28,873 nt of DNA, from IMG/VR virus record IMGVR_UViG_3300010160_000172, positions 1 to 28,873 of that record, one strand, 5' to 3'. Below the pieces are notes generated by a model. That model searched no databases and was not told the origin of the DNA. It saw nothing but the letters and a program-made list of their open reading frames with translations. This DNA comes from a virus. The first letter of the stretch is position 1, and every line of letters begins with the position of its first letter. A program made the position numbers and the translations under genes. Of this stretch, positions 11,510-25,891 are shown piece after piece.

Positions 11510-12394
11510 TTATTCTTCTTCAGCGAGTTTAGAGAAGTAAGCTAAGTCATCATCATCTGTTGTTACCAATTCAGGCTCTTTGGCCTTAGTTGGAGCAGCA
11601 AACTCTTTTGCTTTCACTTGTTCTACAGTTGTCTTTGGTGCTTCACCATTCAAACCGAGAACCTTGTCAAGGCGTTTCTTCAGGTCATCATATGACTTGA
11701 ACTCTTTATCACCCACCAGTTCTTGTAGTGAGTGTTCGTTCTTCCAAATCTTTTCCAACTCATCATCATCTTTCGACAATGCTGATGGAGAATCAAATTC
11801 AGACTTGTCATAGTTCTGATAGCCTTCAACTTTACGAATCTTCAATTTGAAGTTAGCACCTTTCCACATATCAAATGGATTGATTGCTTGTTCATCTTCA
11901 AAAGCAGGATTCATTGCTTCAGTAATCTTATCAAAGATTTTCTTACCGAAACGGAACAATTTAATTTGTCCTTCGTTTTCAGGGTGCTTAGGATCCGAAA
12001 CGATATAAACGTTAACGATATAATTCAACTTACGTTTTTGTTTACGGACAACATCTTTGTTTGCTTCAATGCCAGAATTCCACAATGATGAATTGTGTTC
12101 ACACACAGGACATTGTTGGTTCTTGGTTGTCAAACAGTTGTCGATTAGCCAACCACCTGGACCTTGAAATCCATGAGAGAAGACTTTGACCCAAGGAAGA
12201 CCATCTTCGCCATCTTTTTCAGAGGCAGGTAGGAATCGGATAACAGCCATACCGTTACCAGCTTTGTCCACTTCTGGACGCCAGTAATTGTCTGATTTAT
12301 CAGAACCACCTTCGGATGATTGGGAGAGTGCCTCGATTGCTTTAGATAATTTGTCGAGGTTGCCAGATTGGCGTTTGAGGTTTGCGAAACTCAT
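11510..12394 (-). CDS. 32: Single-stranded DNA-binding protein gp32
   Basis: This 294-residue protein has the three gp32 parts. The basic N-terminus has a KRQSG element, like the LAST motif used for cooperative binding. The OB-fold core contains YWRPEVDKAGNGMAVIRFLP and a zinc site, His74 with Cys87, Cys95 and Cys98 (SHGFQGPGGWLIDNCLTTKN, QQCPVC). The C-terminal tail is acidic (DDDDLAYFSKLAEEE), used in T4 to dock replication and recombination proteins. It coats ssDNA at the replication fork and works with the helicase loader gp59, encoded two genes upstream. A Shine-Dalgarno sequence (AAAGGAAA) and an upstream CTAAATA element are present, and it has its own strong terminator. Confidence 0.96.
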   Translation of the reverse strand: MSFANLKRQSGNLDKLSKAIEALSQSSEGGSDKSDNYWRPEVDKAGNGMAVIRFLPASEKDGEDGLPWVKVFSHGFQGPGGWLIDNCLTTKNQQCPVCEHNSSLWNSGIEANKDVVRKQKRKLNYIVNVYIVSDPKHPENEGQIKLFRFGKKIFDKITEAMNPAFEDEQAINPFDMWKGANFKLKIRKVEGYQNYDKSEFDSPSALSKDDDELEKIWKNEHSLQELVGDKEFKSYDDLKKRLDKVLGLNGEAPKTTVEQVKAKEFAAPTKAKEPELVTTDDDDLAYFSKLAEEE

Positions 12395-15284: not shown

Positions 15285-15291
15285 TATTTAG
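15285..15291 (-). promoter_or_regulatory. CTAAATA late-promoter-like element for the barrel gene
   Basis: CCTAAATACC on the minus strand lies 31 nt before the barrel start codon and overlaps the stop codon of the upstream hydroxylase-like gene. The distance suits a short leader carrying the AGGAG Shine-Dalgarno sequence. Confidence 0.5.
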
Positions 15292-15893
15292 GAACCTATC
15301 AAACCTTCCTCAAAGGAGGAAATTCCTAAAAAAGACCTTGATATATCTATAATATAAATCAATCTTCTTTTTTGTGTTTTATTGTATGCACTGTGTAATA
15401 CACCATTATCAAAGGCAAACAAATTTGACCAATCCATTTCTGTACCCATAGCTTCAAAGAAAACATCTCCGTCAGGAATGATTAATGGTACGTGTATTCT
15501 AATTGTTTTGCGAGAATGATTTTCTATATCAGAATGTCTACTAATTACTCCACCAGCTTCTAATATACTATAACCACTGCAACCACAATGAGCAATATAT
15601 TTCTGTGTTAACTCACAAGCAGTTGGGAATATATTTCTAATACTTGGTTGAAGAAACATATTTTCTTCTATTTTTTTCTCAGGTAAAACATAACGTAAAC
15701 CTTCTATCTTCCAATCAACTCTTTCCTTATCATCTAACAATGCTTGTTTATTTACTTTTGAGTAAGGAGTGCCACCTTTAAAAGTGGTATAAAAATCTTT
15801 ATGGTGTGCCAAAAATTCATCAAGTAATTTAGGTGCCAATTCTATTAATTCATCGGCAATTTTTATTTCTTCTTTCTTCCAAATTGTTTTCAT
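15288..15893 (-). CDS. Aspartyl/asparaginyl beta-hydroxylase-like 2OG oxygenase
   Basis: This 201-residue protein is of the Asp/Asn hydroxylase type. The double-stranded beta-helix core has GGVISRHSDIENHSRKTIRI with metal ligands His120 and Asp122, then HVPLIIPDGDVFF. FAFDNGVLHSAYNKTQKRRL supplies distal His167 and a candidate 2-oxoglutarate-binding Arg177. Such enzymes use Fe(II), O2 and 2-oxoglutarate to hydroxylate Asp/Asn in proteins or small molecules. I use the ATG at 15893 rather than the GTG at 15896, because GGAGG lies only 4 nt before the ATG and would touch the GTG. The gene follows directly on the tmRNA gene in the same direction. The target is unknown. Confidence 0.8.
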   Translation of the reverse strand: MKTIWKKEEIKIADELIELAPKLLDEFLAHHKDFYTTFKGGTPYSKVNKQALLDDKERVDWKIEGLRYVLPEKKIEENMFLQPSIRNIFPTACELTQKYIAHCGCSGYSILEAGGVISRHSDIENHSRKTIRIHVPLIIPDGDVFFEAMGTEMDWSNLFAFDNGVLHSAYNKTQKRRLIYIIDISRSFLGISSFEEGLIGS

Positions 15894-15909
15894 CACACCT
15901 CCATTAAAT

Positions 15910-15940
15910 GGTTGGTTATTCTGTTACGAGGAAACCAACC
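15910..15940 (-). other. 8-bp hairpin at the 3' end of the tmRNA coding piece
   Basis: GGTTGGTT (15910-15917) pairs perfectly with AACCAACC (15933-15940) around a 15-nt loop. It lies after the tag stop codon and before the hydroxylase Shine-Dalgarno sequence, and probably forms the terminal structure or part of a pseudoknot of the coding piece. Confidence 0.55.
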
Positions 15941-15958
15941 GAAACCCTAGGCTAGCGT

Positions 15959-15991
15959 TTAGGCTGCCAATCTGTATGAACTTTCGTTTGC
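15959..15991 (-). other. tmRNA tag reading frame (ANESSYRLAA)
   Basis: GCA AAC GAA AGT TCA TAC AGA TTG GCA GCC TAA encodes ten residues then stop. Bacterial tags typically start A(A)N(D/E) and end LAA/VAA, the ClpXP degron, and this fits at both ends. The resume codon GCA in context TCTGCAAACGA parallels E. coli GTCGCAAACGA. Confidence 0.88.
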
Positions 15992-16180
15992 AGATGTTTT
16001 TTGTTTACTGTTTACGACTATCTGTGTCGAGTAGCTAATTAGTTTACTAGTATGTCGGTCGATCCTGTGTATGGCCCATCAAAAGCATACCCCATTAGAG
16101 CCCATAAAATGGTTTCTTTCATCTAAGACATATGCTTTTGGTGGACCATTCGGGCACTGCCCCCGAGTGTCGCCATCATT

Positions 16181-16720
16181 TCAAAAAATCAGTTTACTAC
16201 CATTACAAATTTGAATAAACTCTCTTAAATGATTGTCATCCAAATTATTCTTTAACCAATTTACAGATACACTAATGTATCTTACATTTTCTTTTATGTA
16301 ACCTTTAGAACTATCAATTCTATCTAATGATGCTTGATAATTTTTATTATAACTTGTTTTTAACACTAAGTCAACACCTGTTATGGCACATTTTCCATTT
16401 TGTTTTTCCCATAACTCTTTGAGATAAGGTAAATCAAAATTACAGTCTTTGTTTCGTTTTAAACAACTAGAAAATAAAGTACGGAAACCTGTATAACCAT
16501 CAGCTCTATTACCACTAATAGATTTTAAATGTTTTTTATTTTCTTCTCCGTAATTCCATTTATCTATTTTTTCTTTACCACGCTTTAGATTTACAGGACC
16601 AACACAAGACAAAGAACAGAAATGTTCTCTACCTTTTTTTTCGGCAGATTTTACATATCTTGTTTCTTTTTCAAATTCTTTTTGACAACCAGCACAACAC
16701 ACCAATGACATTGATTTCAT
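16181..16720 (-). CDS. HNH homing-type endonuclease
   Basis: This 179-residue protein has an N-terminal zinc-ribbon-like element (CCAGCQKEF ... HFCSLSC) followed by a basic linker. The HNH core is NGKCAITGVDLVL, then ASLDRIDSSKGYIKENVRYI, with the Asp-Arg-Ile-Asp and NVR elements typical of phage free-standing HNH endonucleases. Such proteins cut phage DNA at or near their insertion site and spread by repair. It lies about 10 nt upstream of the tmRNA acceptor part, in the same direction, suggesting that the tmRNA locus is or was its target. A Shine-Dalgarno sequence (GGAGGT) and a CTAAATA element precede it. Confidence 0.85.
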   Translation of the reverse strand: MKSMSLVCCAGCQKEFEKETRYVKSAEKKGREHFCSLSCVGPVNLKRGKEKIDKWNYGEENKKHLKSISGNRADGYTGFRTLFSSCLKRNKDCNFDLPYLKELWEKQNGKCAITGVDLVLKTSYNKNYQASLDRIDSSKGYIKENVRYISVSVNWLKNNLDDNHLREFIQICNGSKLIF

Positions 16721-17977: not shown

Positions 17978-18628
17978 TTAATTTTCCTTATAAAACTTTA
18001 TGTACTCCAATAAAGTATTTAGATGGTCCGCAGTCTTTTCAATAAAAATCAATGGTTCTTCATCATCTACGGCCATAATAATCACAATTTGGTCAATACC
18101 ATTACCAATCAATTCTTCATACATACAGGCATATGCCACACATTGAGCAAAGTAGTTGTCAATGTCTTCCCTTTTCTTAATCCTCTTGGATGTTTTAAAG
18201 TCAATCACAGACAAAACACCATCAAATTCACCAATACAATCAACACGACCTGCCATACCAAGTTTAACTGACCATAAGGCACATTCTTGGTAGTGAATAT
18301 TGTTAATACGGTTTAAGATTGGTTTAAGTGGTAGAAACATGGCCTTAGCATCAGGCATAATCTCACCAAGTGGTTCATTGTTTAGATATCGTTCACATAG
18401 TGTATGTACGTTTGTACCACGACCTGATGCCTTGCGTGATATCTTGTTGGCTTCTTCTTCACCAACACGTTTACGCCACGCTATGATGGCCGCCTTACCT
18501 TTTGCACCAATGACTGTGGTAACAGATGGTAGTTTTATACCATCAGGTGTGGTGTAGTATCTTTTTCCATCAGGAAAAGTTTCTGATTTTAAATTTACAA
18601 GGTCTTTTGGTGGGCAATAAACAAACAT
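17978..18628 (-). CDS. RecB-like PD-(D/E)xK exonuclease
   Basis: This 216-residue protein has the PD-(D/E)xK motifs of the RecB/Cas4-like group. The helix GTNVHTLCERYL carries the early His, GMAGRVDCIGEFDG carries the first metal Asp, VIDFKTSKR is the D-x-K core, and YFAQCVAYACMYEE is the Q-x-x-x-Y helix. These enzymes degrade DNA ends in recombination, repair or host-genome breakdown. The ATG overlaps the stop of the upstream radical-SAM gene by 1 nt (TAATG), so the two are co-translated. It could alternatively work in DNA-end processing for packaging. Confidence 0.82.
   Translation of the reverse strand: MFVYCPPKDLVNLKSETFPDGKRYYTTPDGIKLPSVTTVIGAKGKAAIIAWRKRVGEEEANKISRKASGRGTNVHTLCERYLNNEPLGEIMPDAKAMFLPLKPILNRINNIHYQECALWSVKLGMAGRVDCIGEFDGVLSVIDFKTSKRIKKREDIDNYFAQCVAYACMYEELIGNGIDQIVIIMAVDDEEPLIFIEKTADHLNTLLEYIKFYKEN
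18016..18022 (-). promoter_or_regulatory. CTAAATA late-promoter-like element for the propeller gene
   Basis: TCTAAATACTT on the minus strand lies inside the last codons of the nuclease gene, 38 nt before the propeller ATG. This suits late expression of a virion gene separately from the upstream enzymes. Confidence 0.45.
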
Positions 18629-20145
18629 TATAATCCTAACTTTAATTTTTTATATTCTAATATAGTTTGATCCGCCTCTTCAATTTTTCTATTTAAAAAG
18701 CTTTTATCAAAATTTCCATCGATGATATCTTTCACATCAACACCTAAACCAACCAATTCATATACATCATGGTTGATACTAACACCTTTGTTAGCATTAC
18801 CATAAATGGATTTACCTGCTTTGATACGGTGTTGTTCGGTTTCTTTATTTAATTTATCTGTAATTGTTCTAACAGTATACCAATTTGCATACTTGTTTTT
18901 CCAAATCATTATACCTTCATCTTCTTGGCCATATCTGAAGTCATCATCATCTTTTGGTAATCTGTATTCTCCGGGTAACATTTCAGTGTATCCCCATTTT
19001 TCATATTCTTTTTCAAATTCACTTAAACGACTGACAGAACCTTTTCTGATTAGTAATGGCCACCAATCCCAATTATCAAACACTTCAAAATTTTGGTCGA
19101 GTAATAACTGCTGACTTTTCAATACACTAGAGATTGGTTCTCCAGGTAAACCTGCAATCATACCTGTATATGTATATGTTGGTTTATATTTCTTTAGTTG
19201 ACGAATAGCTTCGAATTGTCTTTCATTATCCAATCCTTTACCAATTGCTTTCTTTGCTTCTGGATGTAATGTTTCTAAACCAAATGTTGCAGCAACCAAA
19301 CCTGTATCACCCAACATAGGGATAGTTTCAGGAAATCTTTCAATCAAATCTGCACGTAAGAATGCTGTGTATGTTATCTTAACACCACTCTTTGCAATAG
19401 CCTCAGCAACATAGTCCAGTTTTACCACATTATCATTAAAGGTATCATCATTAAACCAATAGTTGGTAACACCAAACATTTCATAGTTTCTTCTTAATTC
19501 TGCTGATAGATTATCTACATGGCGGATGTAATCATTTTTCTTTTTACCCAACAATGGAAAGGCACAGAATCTACACCTGAAAATACAGCCTCTACTAATT
19601 TCAATAGGCAAGAAATTGTGTTTGATTAAATCACTTTCCAACCACTTAATAGTTAAATCGTTAGTATCATTCTTATACAACATCTCAGCATTTACTGACC
19701 GAGTCTCTCTGTATATTTCCCATGGTAAATCATTCAGTAGTTTTCTGGTTAAGAATTTAAGATAATGTAGCACAGCTTCTTCAGCATAACCCCAGAAAAT
19801 CTTATCTACTTTAGTCAAGTCAACACCACTAATTGGTGTTTCATTACCACCAATTAGAGTCTTTACTTTAGGATATTTTTCTTTGATGTGATTGAATAGA
19901 TAATTGATTTTATCAAAAGCGTATATGAATGTAATACTAATACCAACAAACAAAGTTTTTGGTCCAATATATCTGGCACAAAGTTGTTCTAATTCTTGCT
20001 CAGTAAAATTACCAAAATAATCTATAACTTCAATATCATAATTGTGTTGTTCCAAGAAAGTTCGCATTCTCGCAGCACCGGCTGGCCGACTAATTGTCCT
20101 AGTCCGTTCCATACCTGTGAAGATGATACCATGTTTATCATTCAT
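18628..20145 (-). CDS. Radical-SAM enzyme with N-terminal B12-binding-type domain
   Basis: This 505-residue protein has two main domains. Residues ~1-130 are Rossmann-like, as in cobalamin-binding radical-SAM enzymes (GAARMRTFLEQHNYDIEVID, LFVGISITFI, VKTLIGGNETPISG), but without the DxHxxG lower-ligand motif. Residues ~180-390 are the radical-SAM barrel: EISRGCIFRCRFCAFPLLGK with cluster cysteines Cys187, Cys191 and Cys194, then YWFNDDTFNDN and FGLETLHPEAKKAIGKGL. A C-terminal extension contains an acidic DDDDF stretch. Related enzymes methylate or rearrange unreactive carbons. It heads a run of oxygenase-fold genes, separated by 3 nt from the first. The substrate is unknown. Confidence 0.85.
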   Translation of the reverse strand: MNDKHGIIFTGMERTRTISRPAGAARMRTFLEQHNYDIEVIDYFGNFTEQELEQLCARYIGPKTLFVGISITFIYAFDKINYLFNHIKEKYPKVKTLIGGNETPISGVDLTKVDKIFWGYAEEAVLHYLKFLTRKLLNDLPWEIYRETRSVNAEMLYKNDTNDLTIKWLESDLIKHNFLPIEISRGCIFRCRFCAFPLLGKKKNDYIRHVDNLSAELRRNYEMFGVTNYWFNDDTFNDNVVKLDYVAEAIAKSGVKITYTAFLRADLIERFPETIPMLGDTGLVAATFGLETLHPEAKKAIGKGLDNERQFEAIRQLKKYKPTYTYTGMIAGLPGEPISSVLKSQQLLLDQNFEVFDNWDWWPLLIRKGSVSRLSEFEKEYEKWGYTEMLPGEYRLPKDDDDFRYGQEDEGIMIWKNKYANWYTVRTITDKLNKETEQHRIKAGKSIYGNANKGVSINHDVYELVGLGVDVKDIIDGNFDKSFLNRKIEEADQTILEYKKLKLGL

Positions 20146-20148
20146 AAT

Positions 20149-20943
20149 TTAAATAAGTTCGTTGTCTCTAACTCTCTTGGTAACATACTTATCTCTGATT
20201 GCATTAAAGAAATCAACATCTTCATCTGTTAATTCAGCAGCATCAATCTTCTCTCTTTGACCACGGACATAATTCAACATCTGTTCAAAATCACCATCAT
20301 AGTTAAAATGTTTGGTTATCTTCTTCACATCATAAGCATCCATAATAATATGATATCTATCTTCATCAGAATCATTTCTAATTTGATGCCATTGGTTTAC
20401 CCAAAGAATCCAAACACCACCATCGGCAGGCATATGTAGATTCTTACCTTGACAGATATGAACACACTTTTTATTTGTCCATAGAGGAATATGAATACGT
20501 GCCATATAATCCGTTTCATTGGCATCTTTGTGTACCAAACTCTTTGAGTGTGCCTTTAAACAAGTAACTCTTGCTCTTGTTGGATAAAATCCCATTTCAC
20601 GAATATCATCTAATACTTTTTTAATTTCACCAACATATGCTTCGGTTGGTTTATCGTGTTCCAATCCATGTGAAATATTAAAATAATTGTATGCCTTGTA
20701 GACCAATTCTTCCGTAGGTAGAAATGACTCTAGTGTGTGTCCTTTTTCTAACTGAATTGCTTCCCAACCACCAGTCCAAGTGGCTTCTTTACACAACAAA
20801 CTCCAACCACCAAAACCGTTGTATTGTGGTGTTTCATATTCTTTACCCTGAATAACTTGGTCACCCAAAGTGAATACACTTTCTCTTACTTCTTGTTTTA
20901 ATTTTTCAATATCTACTGTGTAATCTAATTTTTCGAAAAACAT
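20149..20943 (-). CDS. Asp/Asn hydroxylase-like 2OG oxygenase
   Basis: This 264-residue protein belongs to the aspartyl/asparaginyl hydroxylase fold. SKSLVHKDANETDYMARIHI holds the metal motif His138-x-Asp140 and Arg149, then PLWTNKKCVH. GGVWILWVNQWHQIRNDSDE carries distal His186, followed by DRYHIIMDAYD with Arg196 as candidate 2-oxoglutarate ligand. An N-terminal ~100-residue region (FGGWSLLCKEATWTGGWEAI) may bind the substrate. It is one of four oxygenase-fold genes in a row and lies directly upstream of the B12-type radical-SAM gene in the direction of transcription. Substrate unknown; proteins, peptides or free metabolites are all possible. Confidence 0.82.
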   Translation of the reverse strand: MFFEKLDYTVDIEKLKQEVRESVFTLGDQVIQGKEYETPQYNGFGGWSLLCKEATWTGGWEAIQLEKGHTLESFLPTEELVYKAYNYFNISHGLEHDKPTEAYVGEIKKVLDDIREMGFYPTRARVTCLKAHSKSLVHKDANETDYMARIHIPLWTNKKCVHICQGKNLHMPADGGVWILWVNQWHQIRNDSDEDRYHIIMDAYDVKKITKHFNYDGDFEQMLNYVRGQREKIDAAELTDEDVDFFNAIRDKYVTKRVRDNELI

Positions 20944-20953
20944 TTTTTATCCT

Positions 20954-21622
20954 TTATAAATTTCCAGTTTCTTTTAACATATCGTAAACTTGACCATAGT
21001 CATAGTGCCTAGTTCTTAATGCAAACGCTTTCCTTAGTTTAGTTCCATCCAATGGTTCAACATTGTGTGGTACCCTAACATCCAACATATATGCTTCGTT
21101 ACGTTGTGCTACAAAAGAACCAATCTCATATACATCATCAAAAGAATATACTGCATCAACATATGTAATTTCTTCACACGTTGGCATATTTTGTTTTTCA
21201 GCCACAAATTCTTTTACTTTACTCTTTAAATCTTCTACATTAATCTCTGTTGCTTCCATAATACCAGCTGATACATCTGTATGTCTATCTTCTTCTGTTT
21301 TCCAAGAATTTGCACCATCTTTTGGTTTAAAGAAAATAGTTTTGTAATCACCTGGTTCATAATAAAAATTAATCGTAGTTATAAAATCATTATCAACATG
21401 AGGTAACAACAAACTATTAATTGACATTCTTGTTACTTGAAAATCTTTCCAATATCTTTCCGGTATAACTTTATACAAAACTTCTTTTTCTGGTTCTGGT
21501 GTCCAAATTGTATTATGTCTAACGCCTAGTCCATATTTACCAGCAAATGAATCTGCCTTACCTTTTGGAATAATTGTATGCGGCATATACTCATATGTAT
21601 GTTTTAATTTAACGAATGACAT
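20954..21622 (-). CDS. Putative oxygenase-fold (DSBH) protein, paralogue A
   Basis: This 222-residue protein is clearly paralogous to the product of the next gene upstream: RYWKDFQVTRMSINSLLLPH versus RYWQDFHLTVMTIDCIIPPH, and both end in a MLKET...N helix. His75-x-Asp77 (LPHVDNDF), His186 (VPHNVEP) and Arg197 (LRKAFALRT) match the H-x-D...H...R pattern of 2OG oxygenases, so an active iron site is plausible. A ~50-residue charged insert (residues ~108-160) is absent from the paralogue. Start by overlap of 14 nt with the preceding gene. Function unknown. Confidence 0.62.
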   Translation of the reverse strand: MSFVKLKHTYEYMPHTIIPKGKADSFAGKYGLGVRHNTIWTPEPEKEVLYKVIPERYWKDFQVTRMSINSLLLPHVDNDFITTINFYYEPGDYKTIFFKPKDGANSWKTEEDRHTDVSAGIMEATEINVEDLKSKVKEFVAEKQNMPTCEEITYVDAVYSFDDVYEIGSFVAQRNEAYMLDVRVPHNVEPLDGTKLRKAFALRTRHYDYGQVYDMLKETGNL

Positions 21623-22139
21623 TATCGGTTTCCTTTAACATTTCAATTACATCCTCATACTTATGAACAAAAGTTCCTAAGGTAATGGCTTTACGTAAAT
21701 TGAATTCACCTTTAACGCCGTGTATTTGACTTACATCAAGTAACCATACTTCCATATCTTTGGCCACAAAAGAATCAACCTCAATCAAATCATCTTCAAA
21801 ATATATATGACCATTGGTTTGGTTCTCTATTTGTATCGTTTTCACTCTATCAACTTTTGGTTTGTAGAATGTTGTTGTACAACCTTCAGTTTGAAGATAG
21901 AAATTGATTGAGGTAATGATTTCTGTATCTGTATGTGGTGGAATTATACAGTCTATTGTCATAACTGTCAAGTGAAAATCTTGCCAGTATCGTTTTGGTA
22001 GTACATTATATATCTTTTCTGCCTCGGGTGACCATATCTTCTTATAGTCAATACCTTTACCATCTACCTTAAATATTTTTAGTGAATCGGTAACTGCGTA
22101 TAGTGGTTTTTCAAATGTTTTTTCCAGTTTGGTAAACAT
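21609..22139 (-). CDS. Putative oxygenase-fold (DSBH) protein, paralogue B
   Basis: This is a 176-residue protein when started at the ATG at 22139 (MFTKLEKTFEK). I prefer this to the in-frame ATG at 22178 because it overlaps the previous stop as TAATG, has a purine-rich GAGTGGAAA upstream, and lines up with the paralogue start. His69-x-Asp71 (PPHTDTEI), His140 (SQIHGVK) and Arg149 (LRKAITLGT) fit the 2OG-oxygenase metal and cosubstrate pattern. The body is FYLQTEGCTTTFYKPK then FVAKDMEVWLLDV. Likely arose with paralogue A by tandem duplication. Substrate unknown. Confidence 0.62.
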   Translation of the reverse strand: MFTKLEKTFEKPLYAVTDSLKIFKVDGKGIDYKKIWSPEAEKIYNVLPKRYWQDFHLTVMTIDCIIPPHTDTEIITSINFYLQTEGCTTTFYKPKVDRVKTIQIENQTNGHIYFEDDLIEVDSFVAKDMEVWLLDVSQIHGVKGEFNLRKAITLGTFVHKYEDVIEMLKETDNVIR

Positions 22140-22831
22140 TATTTCCACTCTTTGATTTTTGCCATACGTCCAGCCCACGATTTTAAAATTACCGTATTCT
22201 GTGCGTTTTTATCTACCACTTTTCTAAGGTCAGTTGATAATGAAATACGTAGGTCATCGGACTTATTTTCATCTACGCCATGTAGAACATAATTTGGAAA
22301 GAAAATTAAACGGCCTTCAACAGGTTTATATCTACGCTCACGTAAATTTGGTGTACTACTTATTTTAATATTCAACCAATCAATTGCGTGTGATGAATCG
22401 AATGCTACAAGGTCACCACAACCTTCTTTTGCTTTGATGTAGTATGTTGCTGCTATAGCAGATTCGGTGTGTCCATGCACCTCTAGGCTTTCTCCTGGCT
22501 CACGTACATTTACCCAACCCATAAAGTGTTCACACCCACGAATATTTAACATTCTAAGTTGTGGAATGTTCTGTACAATCTTTTTGGTTACAATGTCTAC
22601 AATTTCTTGTTTGAGTATATCTAAATTTGGTCTGCTGTAGTCCCATATACTATTGTTTGGGTCTCTGTCTTTACCCAATACGATATCTTTGCCGATACCA
22701 TAGATTTCATCTAATAGAGTTTCATTAAATTGTTCATCAAAACGTGTTTGTACTTCCCATATTGGACTTTGCCAAAACATATTCTGTGCATTTTGGTACC
22801 AATGGTACCTATCTTTGTCACTCATTGTCAT
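22139..22831 (-). CDS. Putative 2OG-Fe(II) oxygenase (phage TIGR02466-like)
   Basis: This 230-residue protein resembles the widespread phage 2OG-Fe(II) oxygenase group. It has GWVNVREPGESLEVHGHTES (His119, His121), AIAATYYIKAKEGCGDLVAF, then VEGRLIFFPNYVLHGVDENK with distal His184 and LRISLSTDLR with Arg195. The FPNxxxHxVxxn...RxSxS signature is strong. Such genes are common in aquatic T4-like phages and their substrates are mostly unknown. It is the first gene of the oxygenase run, coupled to paralogue B by a TAATG overlap. Confidence 0.85.
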   Translation of the reverse strand: MTMSDKDRYHWYQNAQNMFWQSPIWEVQTRFDEQFNETLLDEIYGIGKDIVLGKDRDPNNSIWDYSRPNLDILKQEIVDIVTKKIVQNIPQLRMLNIRGCEHFMGWVNVREPGESLEVHGHTESAIAATYYIKAKEGCGDLVAFDSSHAIDWLNIKISSTPNLRERRYKPVEGRLIFFPNYVLHGVDENKSDDLRISLSTDLRKVVDKNAQNTVILKSWAGRMAKIKEWK

Positions 22832-22842
22832 AATAAAAATTG

Positions 22843-23229
22843 TTAACTATTTTGAGTTTCGTACCACTCTTTATGTAGTCTTAATCTTTCCATTTTTAAA
22901 TTATATTCTTCTTCAGACAAGTCTGCATCTTTAGGTAAAGATAGTTGATGATTATATTCTTCTATTGGATTTCTAGGTGCACATTGTAGAGCCCAATCAG
23001 CACCATATTCTTGTATTATTCCTTGTAGAGGTTCTTTCCAAATCTTAGTTAATAAATCACCGTACAATTGGTCAACCAGAAAAGATTCTTTCATATCTTG
23101 TTGTGAAAGATTTAAGTAATTTTCTTCAAATGTTTTTTTAAAGAACTTGGCCAACAAATCAGGCCTAAAAATGACAGTATTGCCACAACAAGTCTTTATA
23201 GTTTCTGATGAAGTATATGTGCCTCTCAT
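22843..23229 (-). CDS. Unknown 128-residue protein in the modification cluster
   Basis: The start chosen is the ATG at 23229 (MRGTYTSSETIK), which overlaps the upstream stop as ATGA and has GGAGAG 7 nt before it; a longer frame from 23247 is less likely. It opens with a CC pair (TIKTCCGNTVIFRPDLLAKF) and is then helical and acidic (FLVDQLYGDLLTKIWKEPLQ; LSEEEYNLKMERLRLHKEWY). I do not recognise a family. It lies between two oxygenase/radical-SAM blocks and is translationally coupled to both neighbours, so an accessory role in the same pathway is possible. Confidence 0.55.
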   Translation of the reverse strand: MRGTYTSSETIKTCCGNTVIFRPDLLAKFFKKTFEENYLNLSQQDMKESFLVDQLYGDLLTKIWKEPLQGIIQEYGADWALQCAPRNPIEEYNHQLSLPKDADLSEEEYNLKMERLRLHKEWYETQNS

Positions 23230-23510
23230 TTTGTTCTCTCCAACCATGCTAAGTACTCATGTACTAGTTTATCATTTACCCTTTTTCTAAGAGATACTGG
23301 TAAGAATATAACAGAATTCAATACCGAATCTTCATACAATTTTGTTATCAGAGCTTCATGGTCTGTTACTAATTTGAAGTAACGCTCTTTATCTTCTTGT
23401 GAGAGACAATTGATAATGTCGTAACTGACTGTATCGAAGAAATGTGTAAGATGGTCATGTAAGAATTCTTCACCATCATCATGTGTTGTTATTAATACTG
23501 CGTCATGCAT
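23226..23510 (-). CDS. Unknown 94-residue protein, coupled to Cys-rich protein gene
   Basis: This protein is MHDAVLITTHDDGEEFLHDH followed by LTHFFDTVSYDIINCLSQED and a helical remainder ending LVHEYLAWLERTK. It is His- and Asp-rich near the N-terminus (HDDGEEFLHDH), a possible metal site, and has no signal peptide. The ATG overlaps the stop of the Cys-rich protein gene (TAATG), so it is co-translated. No family recognised. Confidence 0.55.
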   Translation of the reverse strand: MHDAVLITTHDDGEEFLHDHLTHFFDTVSYDIINCLSQEDKERYFKLVTDHEALITKLYEDSVLNSVIFLPVSLRKRVNDKLVHEYLAWLERTK

Positions 23511-24403
23511 TAAATAACTCCTTTTTTGGGAATAAATCTTTCAATCAAACGACCTAACTCGGCAACAAGTTTGAACATAACAAAAATAACAACAAGACCT
23601 GCACCTTTAATGAAACCAGGTTCTTTCTTGCTTGGTCCAAACCAACGTTGCCACACACCAATAACTTTACAGATTGGTGTACCAAATGCAAACATCATCT
23701 TGCCTGTAAGACTACCAGTTTCTTTTTCACCCATCATATAGGCCATTTCTTCAGCCCAAGGTGTTGCGATATCGTGAGCCCATGTGATAGACCATTTCTT
23801 AGCAGCAATACTAAAATCTTCATCGGACATCCAAGGCATCATTTTAGGTCCCTTGCCGTCCATCCAGTCAACAACAATCTCAGCCCAAGCACGATAACCA
23901 TTATAAATGTCTGGATGTGTTTTAATCAATTGTTCACCAAATGCTTGGTCAGCCTCAAAGATGTTTTTCTTCATAAGACCAAGGTCAAATAGTTTTGTAC
24001 AAATAATCTTTGAACAATTACAGTTGTATGTGAAACAATTTTGGTCACTTGTACAATTATACACCGGCGTAGGAACAATTTGACAATCTCCAGTTTGTAA
24101 CCACGCTTGTGCGTCACAATTGGCGGAACCTATATTCGTACAGTTATTTGTTGCGTTACATTGGAAATCTGGACCAGAGCTACAATTACAATTAACCTCA
24201 TTACCATTATTACAATTGCCTTGATTGTTTTGAAGATAATACTTTAAACTCCAAAATGAAGCCATATCAGGTATTGTCGGCCTAATTCCAGGCTTTATGT
24301 ATATTCTTAAAAACTCCAAATCAGCAGTTGTTGCTGGAGGTATATTCGTTTCAGCTTCAATGTCCGATACTCCAATTCGATTCGGATTTGATGGTAGTGT
24401 CAT
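23510..24403 (-). CDS. Cys-rich protein with C-terminal hydrophobic segment
   Basis: This 297-residue protein has three parts. The N-terminus PNRIGVSDIEAETNIPP resembles the short entry segment of phage tail and fibre proteins. Residues ~60-138 hold 12 cysteines in about 75 residues with N-C-N/C-N-C spacing (NCNCSS, NCNCSK) and low charge. The C-terminal half is Trp/Met-rich (AWAEIVVDWMDGKGPKMMPW) and ends in a hydrophobic span FIKGAGLVVIFVMFKLVAEL plus a basic tail. It sits directly between a SPASM radical-SAM gene and a small coupled gene. It may be a virion protein with disulfides, a metal binder, or a substrate for thioether cross-linking; none is proven. Confidence 0.5.
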   Translation of the reverse strand: MTLPSNPNRIGVSDIEAETNIPPATTADLEFLRIYIKPGIRPTIPDMASFWSLKYYLQNNQGNCNNGNEVNCNCSSGPDFQCNATNNCTNIGSANCDAQAWLQTGDCQIVPTPVYNCTSDQNCFTYNCNCSKIICTKLFDLGLMKKNIFEADQAFGEQLIKTHPDIYNGYRAWAEIVVDWMDGKGPKMMPWMSDEDFSIAAKKWSITWAHDIATPWAEEMAYMMGEKETGSLTGKMMFAFGTPICKVIGVWQRWFGPSKKEPGFIKGAGLVVIFVMFKLVAELGRLIERFIPKKGVI

Positions 24404-24433
24404 GTTCGTATGCTCTCTGAATTATTATTCTAG

Positions 24434-24440
24434 TATTTAT
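24434..24440 (-). promoter_or_regulatory. ATAAATA late-promoter-like element for the Cys-rich gene
   Basis: ACATAAATACTAG on the minus strand overlaps the stop codon of the SPASM gene and lies 30 nt before the ATG at 24403. It is one of the better matches to the T4 late box, supporting late expression and perhaps a virion role for the Cys-rich protein. Confidence 0.5.
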
Positions 24441-25891
24441 GTTTCCAAACGAGATTTACCATAGACAGGAACGTTATCAACTTCACCAATAATCTCTTTA
24501 ACTACCTTGATAGGTATGATTCTTTTCTGTTTTTCTGTATCTTCATGTTGGAAAATTGTACCAAAAATGTCTTGTCTTTCCAATGGTAATGTATCACTCT
24601 TAATAAGTGAAGGAATATATCCATTTGTCATTACAGTAAATCCAGCAGCAAACAAAGCCACGTTGTCAGAGTAAGCATTAGCACAAGAAATATCCCAAAA
24701 TTTCTCATCCAAGAACATACAAGCACCTTTACAGATGTGTAGTACAGGACATTCTGGACACTCTTTACGATTGGACCAATGAGTAACTGATTTCAATTCA
24801 ACATTTGAATAATCATCTAAGTTTCCACCATTGTGTGATTCACCATTTTTTGAGATTTCCAATGTACTTACATTTTGACAAGTCATTACGTTACCACGTA
24901 GGTCGACCGAAATAGTGTGCTCGTCATCCATACCACATTTTTGGCCTAGGTATTTAGATTCCCTGTGGTTTAATACACCACTAACAAAATTATCGATTTT
25001 ACCTAACTGGCCTCTAAAACCAATTTTACCATTGGATCCATACAATTCACCAAATGCACGTTTACGAAAGTCAAAATGTTCTTGTTTTGTAAGTAGTGAG
25101 TTTGAAATGCCTTCTTCGTCATAGGCATCTACCATAGAACCTTCACCTAAGATAACATTTTCATCACCAGTAAGGTTTACAAACCAGTCATAGATTTCTT
25201 TTCTACTTTGGTTCTTAGAATTCAACATAGAATTGAAACTGAAACTTTTACCTAGTCGTGTCATCATTCTATGGAAACCGAGAATACGGTCTTTCTGTTC
25301 CGGATCATCAAATGGGTCTGGTCCACGTACAAATTGACCTGGACCATCATGTGAGATTGCTACTGAGAAGTCCATCATCATTAACCAATCAATAATCTCA
25401 TCAGTCAGAATAGAACCATTGGTAATGATACTAAAACGTGGTTTTGTTTTCCAACTATCAAACTTTTCCGCAATGGCCTCTGCCAGTGGTTTTAGTGTTT
25501 TCCAGTATACCAGTGGTTCGCCACCCCAAAATTCAACAATCAATCCAACATCTTCATCAAAATGTAGTGCTTCCAATTTGTCTAGGAAGGAATCAATATC
25601 TTTTTTGGAAGTTTCTGGTTGACGCTCAACGAATTTCTGTGAGCAATAGTCACATGAATAATTACAACTCAGTCCCATCTGGATCTTTAGGTGACTGATT
25701 AGTTTTGATTTCTTTAAAGGCCGATTCTTATCGAATGATTTGTATGGTTTTAGAGAGTGTTTCTCTCTTTGTTCTTCTGGATATTCAAAAATATTACCAT
25801 CAGCATCTTTCAATACATTGGTCATATTATCATAATGAAAATATTTTACATCACCGTCTTCGAATCGGGTGCCTTTAATCTCAAATAACAT
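24437..25891 (-). CDS. Radical-SAM/SPASM enzyme (anaerobic-maturase-like)
   Basis: This 484-residue protein has the radical-SAM motif in LKIQMGLSCNYSCDYCSQKF (Cys76, Cys80, Cys83). The barrel features EFWGGEPLVYWKTL and FSIITNGSILTDEI follow. A C-terminal SPASM region starts KCGMDDEHTISVDLRGNVMT and includes CQNVS, then ECPECPVLHICKGACMF and a final SCANAY, enough cysteines for two auxiliary iron-sulfur clusters. SPASM enzymes modify peptides or proteins: sulfatase maturation, thioether cross-links, or Cys/Ser oxidation. An N-terminal ~60-residue domain (MLFEIKGTRFEDGDVKYFHY) may be a peptide-recognition-type element. The downstream neighbour is the Cys-rich protein, a natural candidate substrate. 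Confidence 0.85.
   Translation of the reverse strand: MLFEIKGTRFEDGDVKYFHYDNMTNVLKDADGNIFEYPEEQREKHSLKPYKSFDKNRPLKKSKLISHLKIQMGLSCNYSCDYCSQKFVERQPETSKKDIDSFLDKLEALHFDEDVGLIVEFWGGEPLVYWKTLKPLAEAIAEKFDSWKTKPRFSIITNGSILTDEIIDWLMMMDFSVAISHDGPGQFVRGPDPFDDPEQKDRILGFHRMMTRLGKSFSFNSMLNSKNQSRKEIYDWFVNLTGDENVILGEGSMVDAYDEEGISNSLLTKQEHFDFRKRAFGELYGSNGKIGFRGQLGKIDNFVSGVLNHRESKYLGQKCGMDDEHTISVDLRGNVMTCQNVSTLEISKNGESHNGGNLDDYSNVELKSVTHWSNRKECPECPVLHICKGACMFLDEKFWDISCANAYSDNVALFAAGFTVMTNGYIPSLIKSDTLPLERQDIFGTIFQHEDTEKQKRIIPIKVVKEIIGEVDNVPVYGKSRLET

Follow-up and report, generated by a model that had tools for sequence, protein, structure and literature searches.

Two-piece tmRNAs, such as that of Caulobacter, are processed by tRNA enzymes, charged with alanine via the G3:U70 pair and delivered by SmpB and EF-Tu, and the proteins that they tag are degraded by ClpXP. 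Two-piece tmRNA genes are already known in phages and are common in aquatic phages: 53 have been published from isolate phage genomes, of which 50 are marine or aquatic (PMC9004378), our pattern scan of viral contigs gave matches in at least 120 contigs, and a permuted tmRNA was found in 34 of the 80 contigs with a close gp32. A first-pass annotation of the DNA studied here, which had considered permuted tmRNAs rare in phages, is corrected by these counts. We analysed a virus record of 28,873 bases (hereafter the window, i.e., the whole stretch), in which T4-like baseplate, tail and gp32 genes are present, and in which the minus strand carries a permuted tmRNA gene whose parts have different relatives. 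Note that no annotated phage isolate matches this whole gene at the DNA level. As a separate observation, the isolate genome of Synechococcus phage BUCT-ZZ01 (ON615601.1) contains an unannotated permuted tmRNA with a canonical T-loop at 116952-117248.

The permuted gene and its parts

Using Infernal, the minus strand of the window matched RF04321 (tmRNA_permuted) with 77.7 bits and an E-value of 1.6e-13 at 16201-15959 (cut-off 47), and RF01849 (alpha_tmRNA) with 74 bits and an E-value of 1.3e-18 at 16248-15910 (cut-off 50), both far above chance, while beta_tmRNA (RF01850) gave 46.5 bits, below its curated cut-off of 84. According to the two matches, the gene (acceptor piece, intervening sequence and coding piece) spans about 16201-15910. 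The covariance-model check that the first-pass annotation had proposed near 15905-16170 was thus positive, and together with the base pairing it bears out the predicted phage-encoded permuted tmRNA with two expected pieces. The span of 15905-16170 itself was right in its minus-strand location and not in its extent, as the P2 5′ strand starts from about 16201 and the 3′ end lies at about 15910. Moreover, two further IMG/VR contigs (L244 and L245) contain a tmRNA gene identical to it letter for letter, and hence the gene is no assembly accident.

Along the minus strand, the P2 5′ strand and the T-arm come first, followed by the acceptor 3′ half with its CCA, the spacer and the acceptor 5′ half, and then by the D-loop, the P2 3′ strand, the PK1 hairpin, the tag ANESSYRLAA and the 3′ helix. 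The P2 5′ strand (16187-16201), which is homologous to the P2 strand of L277, L278 and L173, is predicted from the sequence and the covariance-model pairing to pair with the P2 3′ strand AATTAGCTACT (16030-16040) through GGTAG (16201-16197) with CTACT (16034-16030) and CTGATT (16192-16187) with AATTAG (16040-16035). The covariance-model alignment of the P2 helix and PK1 showed few non-canonical positions (one PK1 hairpin was checked), and one G-A mismatch occurs in P2a. The P2 duplex energy is by itself weak evidence, since the gene's own duplex (-10.9) is just marginally better than those with the strands of other tmRNAs (mean -10.5, a value distorted by failed duplexes).

Several elements reported by the first reading were recovered exactly. 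Indeed, the T-arm TCGGG-GGCAGTG-CCCGA (16166-16150), identical in L103, L081, L043 and L041, is joined to the acceptor stem, whose 3′ half ATGGTCC (16143-16149, with U70) forms 7/7 pairs in permuted order with the 5′ half GGGCCAT (16071-16077, with G3); the discriminator A and the CCA are encoded at 16139-16142 (CCA at 16141-16139); the ends of the 61-nt intervening sequence between the two halves (16138-16078), a predicted hairpin with a fold z-score of -2.15, pair with each other; and the tag reading frame ANESSYRLAA-stop lies at the expected place (15991-15959). In total, 12/12 acceptor and T-stem pairs are formed, and the alanine determinant (G3:U70) is encoded together with the discriminator A and CCA. 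The remaining parts are the D-loop equivalent ACACAGGATCGAC (16058-16070), assigned to the alpha type GGATCGA by comparison with other phage tmRNAs, the PK1 hairpin CGACACAGATAGTCG (16015-16029), found unchanged in L185, L156, L162 and L195 of the canonical T-loop group, and the 3′ helix GGTTGGTT/AACCAACC of the mRNA piece (15910-15940), near identical in L183, L190 and L271. The T-loop GGCAGTG, described in the first-pass annotation as not standard, is of the alpha-tmRNA type: it fits the Rfam alpha-tmRNA consensus GGCgGUA and is found in exactly this form in 30 of 162 distinct sequences. In a comparative study of 2005 (PMC1168896), a mitochondrial tmRNA was reported to have GG in its T-loop, and the T-loop of Caulobacter to be changed.

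These 162 distinct phage tmRNA candidates were gathered from viral contigs by sequence anchors, with base pairing not required and the nearest CCA taken as the acceptor end; at least one of them (L291/L307) is not a tmRNA and L008 is doubtful. All 12 acceptor and T-stem pairs are formed in 160 candidates, as many as have G3:U70, and the variable pairs covary (as an example, pair 5:68 is formed in 162/162 versus a shuffle mean of 70.6, with shuffles that ignore relatedness). In these counts, acceptor positions 4-7 are the independent evidence, and part of the T-arm and TCCACCA are not, because they were fixed in the pattern that brought in many loci. A looser criterion for the acceptor piece (172 ‘distinct’ genes and 18 class changes) was dropped since upstream tRNAs were mistaken for acceptor pieces, and a degenerate pattern for further tmRNAs was too strict and added nothing.

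Kinship of the tRNA-like domain, the body and the spacer

Phage T-loops were divided into an alpha type (GGCRGTR) and a canonical type (TTCRANT or TGCRAWT), with names that follow Rfam consensus sequences and not any host assignment. The D-loop GGATCGA was found in 88/109 alpha-type versus 0/53 canonical tmRNAs (Fisher 8e-26), and the tRNA-like domain of the window is of alpha type by both its T-loop and its D-loop. Its acceptor is identical to that of L103 and its D-loop to those of L107 and L241, all of alpha type. In a segment-wise comparison, the nearest neighbours disagree between domains: those of the PK1 hairpin, the 3′ helix and the tag region are mainly (nearly all) of canonical type. 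In addition, on a tree of the body only, the three tmRNAs with which the window groups (support 100/98) have a canonical T-loop. Contrary to what whole-gene membership of alpha_tmRNA would imply, the mRNA domain is not closest to alpha-type genes. Sequence comparison shows the window tmRNA to be an intragenic mosaic, the parts of which have different kin: the body (P2, PK1, tag and 3′ helix) belongs to a phage lineage with a mostly canonical T-loop and mostly best-scoring as beta-tmRNA, the T-arm, acceptor and D-loop to the alpha type, and the spacer has its counterpart in a canonical-type tmRNA.

On the body tree, which has about 220 columns and a bootstrap not yet settled, the T-loop class changes 15 times, with at least 10 changes forced by supported branches. 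We infer that tRNA-like domains have been exchanged by recombination. Because the gene is permuted, the T-arm, both acceptor halves, the spacer and the D-loop lie side by side within about 110 bp of DNA, and recombination between co-infecting phages could thus swap them as one cassette. The classes might also have become mixed in place, through point mutation and compensation and with no recombination; the free covariation of acceptor and T-stem pairs and the weak trees given by such short domains would fit this scenario, which nevertheless remains unlikely since bodies, P2 strands and spacers that are identical or nearly so occur with a T-arm, acceptor and D-loop that are wholly different together. 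Indeed, the 100-nt body is identical and the tRNA-like domain different between L173 and L331, and between L176 and both L279 and L295. Likewise, over the T-arm and acceptor 3′ half, the window matches L103 at 24/24 positions, L103 being an alpha-type tmRNA on a 125-kb contig with no detectable match to the window gp32, and L312 combines an L282-like left half with an L277-like right half.

Between the window and L192, the spacers are 87% identical, with the T-arm and acceptor just 67% identical, and similar differences were seen for L081/L142 (spacer 92%, T-arm and acceptor 62%), L043/L177 (97% and 62%), L078/L165 (90% and 71%) and L173/L176 (97% and 71%). The core of the window spacer was found in 7 indexed contigs, always inside tmRNA spacers and with both T-loop classes. 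A second core, GCGCCGTGCGNTAATGAAGATGACTAAGG (L173, L176, L183 and L275-L338), was found in 64 contigs, inside tmRNA spacers in 62 of them; it is 53 nt long and 95.5% identical across 14 T-arm/acceptor combinations, the T-arms of which are 66% identical. Its two occurrences outside tmRNA (L307:680-760 and L291) lie between tRNA-Met and tRNA-Trp genes. Halves matching different relatives on the left and right were seen in L312 and L320, with the change inside the spacer, as if by crossover at this place. The spacers had no match to any Rfam family, ribozyme or riboswitch, and the reading of spacers as known ribozymes was dropped for this reason. A short open frame in the 53-nt core was rejected as coding, because third-position changes are nearly absent, which argues for an RNA-level or recent-transfer cause. 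From these comparisons, the spacer would be either exchanged as a unit or functional. The presence of conserved spacers in the part of the gene thought to be discarded raises a testable question on precursor processing.

Taken more broadly, it is possible, at slightly short of even odds in our estimate, that the permuted tmRNA of aquatic T4-like phages is a modular gene, whose tRNA-like cassette is swapped and has switched between alpha and canonical types many times, and whose spacers are not neutral sequences but RNA modules that are conserved or can be exchanged. Such cassette swaps would perhaps provide a match to the SmpB or AlaRS of a new host, or an escape from RNA-targeting defences. 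The window gene suggests that permutation, elsewhere an oddity of certain bacterial lineages, allows the tRNA-like domain of a tmRNA to be exchanged within a single recombination tract, and the many class switches within one gene neighbourhood form a natural experiment on which tmRNA features must match the host. The literature searched consisted of open-licence papers, and the mosaic or the shared spacers may have been described before.

Genomic neighbourhood and proposed role

A tmRNA is retained at this locus in about 30 relatives, for the most part with a canonical T-loop. The shared order runs from an exonuclease through the tmRNA, a porin or hydroxylase, a 92-aa gene, an endolysin, two small genes and a nucleotidase to gp32, some of these members being absent in places. 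In the window, the gene of the gp32 single-strand DNA binding protein (11510-12394, minus; PHROG 224, E 1e-110) is the anchor of this syntenic locus, and an Asp/Asn beta-hydroxylase-like gene (15288-15896, minus; PF05118, E 6.3e-13) lies downstream of the tmRNA. L271, part of a contig of 179,754 bases and the closest relative with this locus, likewise has exonuclease, tmRNA and hydroxylase, without HNH gene; its tmRNA aligns closely with that of the window in the spacer and 3′ tail and differs in T-arm, acceptor, D-loop, P2, PK1 and tag. Elsewhere in the window, at 18628-25891, a cluster was observed that comprises genes for radical SAM enzymes, Asp/Asn hydroxylase-like proteins and 2OG-Fe(II) oxygenases; the radical SAM enzymes gave one weak B12-binding match and one PHROG 1802 match, and a radical SAM protein of 505 aa had no match in the phage collection.

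Directly upstream of the tmRNA lies an HNH endonuclease gene (16181-16720, minus; PHROG 3322, E 1.3e-19), whose last codons and stop (AAT GGT AGT AAA CTG ATT TTT TGA) fall inside the tmRNA P2 strand. The gene is found in 0/14 relatives and is present in L244/L245, its G+C is 0.28 versus 0.355 for the window, and the P2-strand sequence under its end also occurs in L277/L278-type tmRNAs without HNH gene. According to these three features, the HNH gene is most likely a later arrival, the end of which consists of tmRNA sequence. No solved relative of the HNH protein was found by sequence. A sigma70-like promoter candidate (TTGACT-17-TATAAT; 16346-16374, minus) was matched by sequence upstream of the tmRNA and within the HNH gene, and a further sigma70-like match precedes the HNH gene (16879-16851); such sites are no more frequent in this region of the window than in shuffles. 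In many relatives, the tmRNA is preceded by a sigma70-like site close to the consensus (11-12/12 match), and the HNH gene, lying between the tmRNA and the upstream promoter-like site, may lower tmRNA expression.

Altogether, we consider, with a probability of roughly 85%, that this mosaic gene encodes a working two-piece tmRNA of a T4-like phage, which would be charged with alanine and would use the SmpB and ClpXP of the host. The precursor would be transcribed as acceptor piece, spacer and coding piece, and the host tRNA-processing nucleases (RNase P 5′ of GGGCCAT, with the 3′ end at the encoded CCA) would excise the spacer hairpin of 61 nt, so that two RNAs would remain, joined through the acceptor and P2 helices. 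By analogy with the family, the host alanyl-tRNA synthetase would charge the tmRNA via G3:U70, and host SmpB and EF-Tu would bring it to stalled ribosomes, which would resume at GCA and add (A)ANESSYRLAA, the tagged product being then degraded by host ClpXP. SmpB is assumed to come from the host because a search of nine phage records, including contigs of 170-180 kb, gave no SmpB gene. The likely gain would be the recycling of ribosomes stalled on fragmented mRNA in infection.

The gene could instead be decaying, i.e., no longer made or functional after damage by the upstream HNH insertion. Its Rfam score is the lowest of the set (77.7 versus 97-159 bits in relatives), ARAGORN, also proposed as a check, reported no tmRNA in the window and does report those of relatives L103, L173, L271 and L277, and the HNH gene overlaps the tmRNA 5′ strand. 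We nevertheless judge decay improbable, since the 12 tRNA-like pairs, the CCA, G3:U70, a P2 of 5 + 6 pairs between distant strands and the tag frame are all kept, a P2 strand homologous to the overlapped one occurs in relatives that lack HNH, and the gene is intact in three contigs. A phage RNA acting as a decoy, which titrates SmpB or blocks host trans-translation, has a precedent in the tRNA-domain-only phage tmRNA of DS6A, reported to be inhibitory to host tmRNA (PMC11915505; PMC4131195); this role is highly improbable here, since the window and most relatives retain a full mRNA domain and a tag ending in LAA-stop, which would be superfluous for a decoy. Finally, a host ssrA remnant carried over by integration and excision, conceivable since ssrA is a common integration site and was suggested as a possible origin for the gene of phage Melnitz (PMC9004378), is the least probable of all, given the T4-like phage locus, the internal position, conserved in about 30 contigs, at which the gene is found complete, and two pattern scans of bacterial genomes (3′ tail; T-arm/acceptor) without match.

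Comparison with known systems

The working two-piece tmRNA proposed here can be compared with four described systems. The mycobacteriophage DS6A likewise encodes a tmRNA-like RNA, but its TLD-only form lacks the mRNA domain, which is complete in the tmRNA of the window. Closer are the Methylophilales phage Melnitz and the pelagimyophage Mosig, which also have a permuted tmRNA in T4-like aquatic phages (PMC9004378). The T-loop of Melnitz, GGCAGTA, is of alpha type as in the window, and its tag frame reads ANDNYVPVDYALAA, compared with ANESSYRLAA in the window. A glutamine riboswitch was reported with the Melnitz two-piece ssrA (PMC9004378); in the window, no Rfam riboswitch reached the gathering score, the nearby hits being all sub-threshold.

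The beta_tmRNA (RF01850) genes of the syntenic contigs L202, L224 and L273 share the genomic locus and the 3′ helix with the window; in addition, L224 has the same PK1 hairpin, and L273 and L271 have the same spacer type. In contrast to the window, these syntenic genes have a canonical T-loop and the D-loop GTTTCGA. The bacterial two-piece tmRNAs (RF04321 and RF01849; e.g., Caulobacter) resemble the window gene in permuted order, acceptor pairing, type of T- and D-loop, CCA and LAA tag end. Unlike them, the window gene is encoded by a phage, and has a beta-like phage body, a spacer common to other phages and an HNH overlap at its 5′ end.
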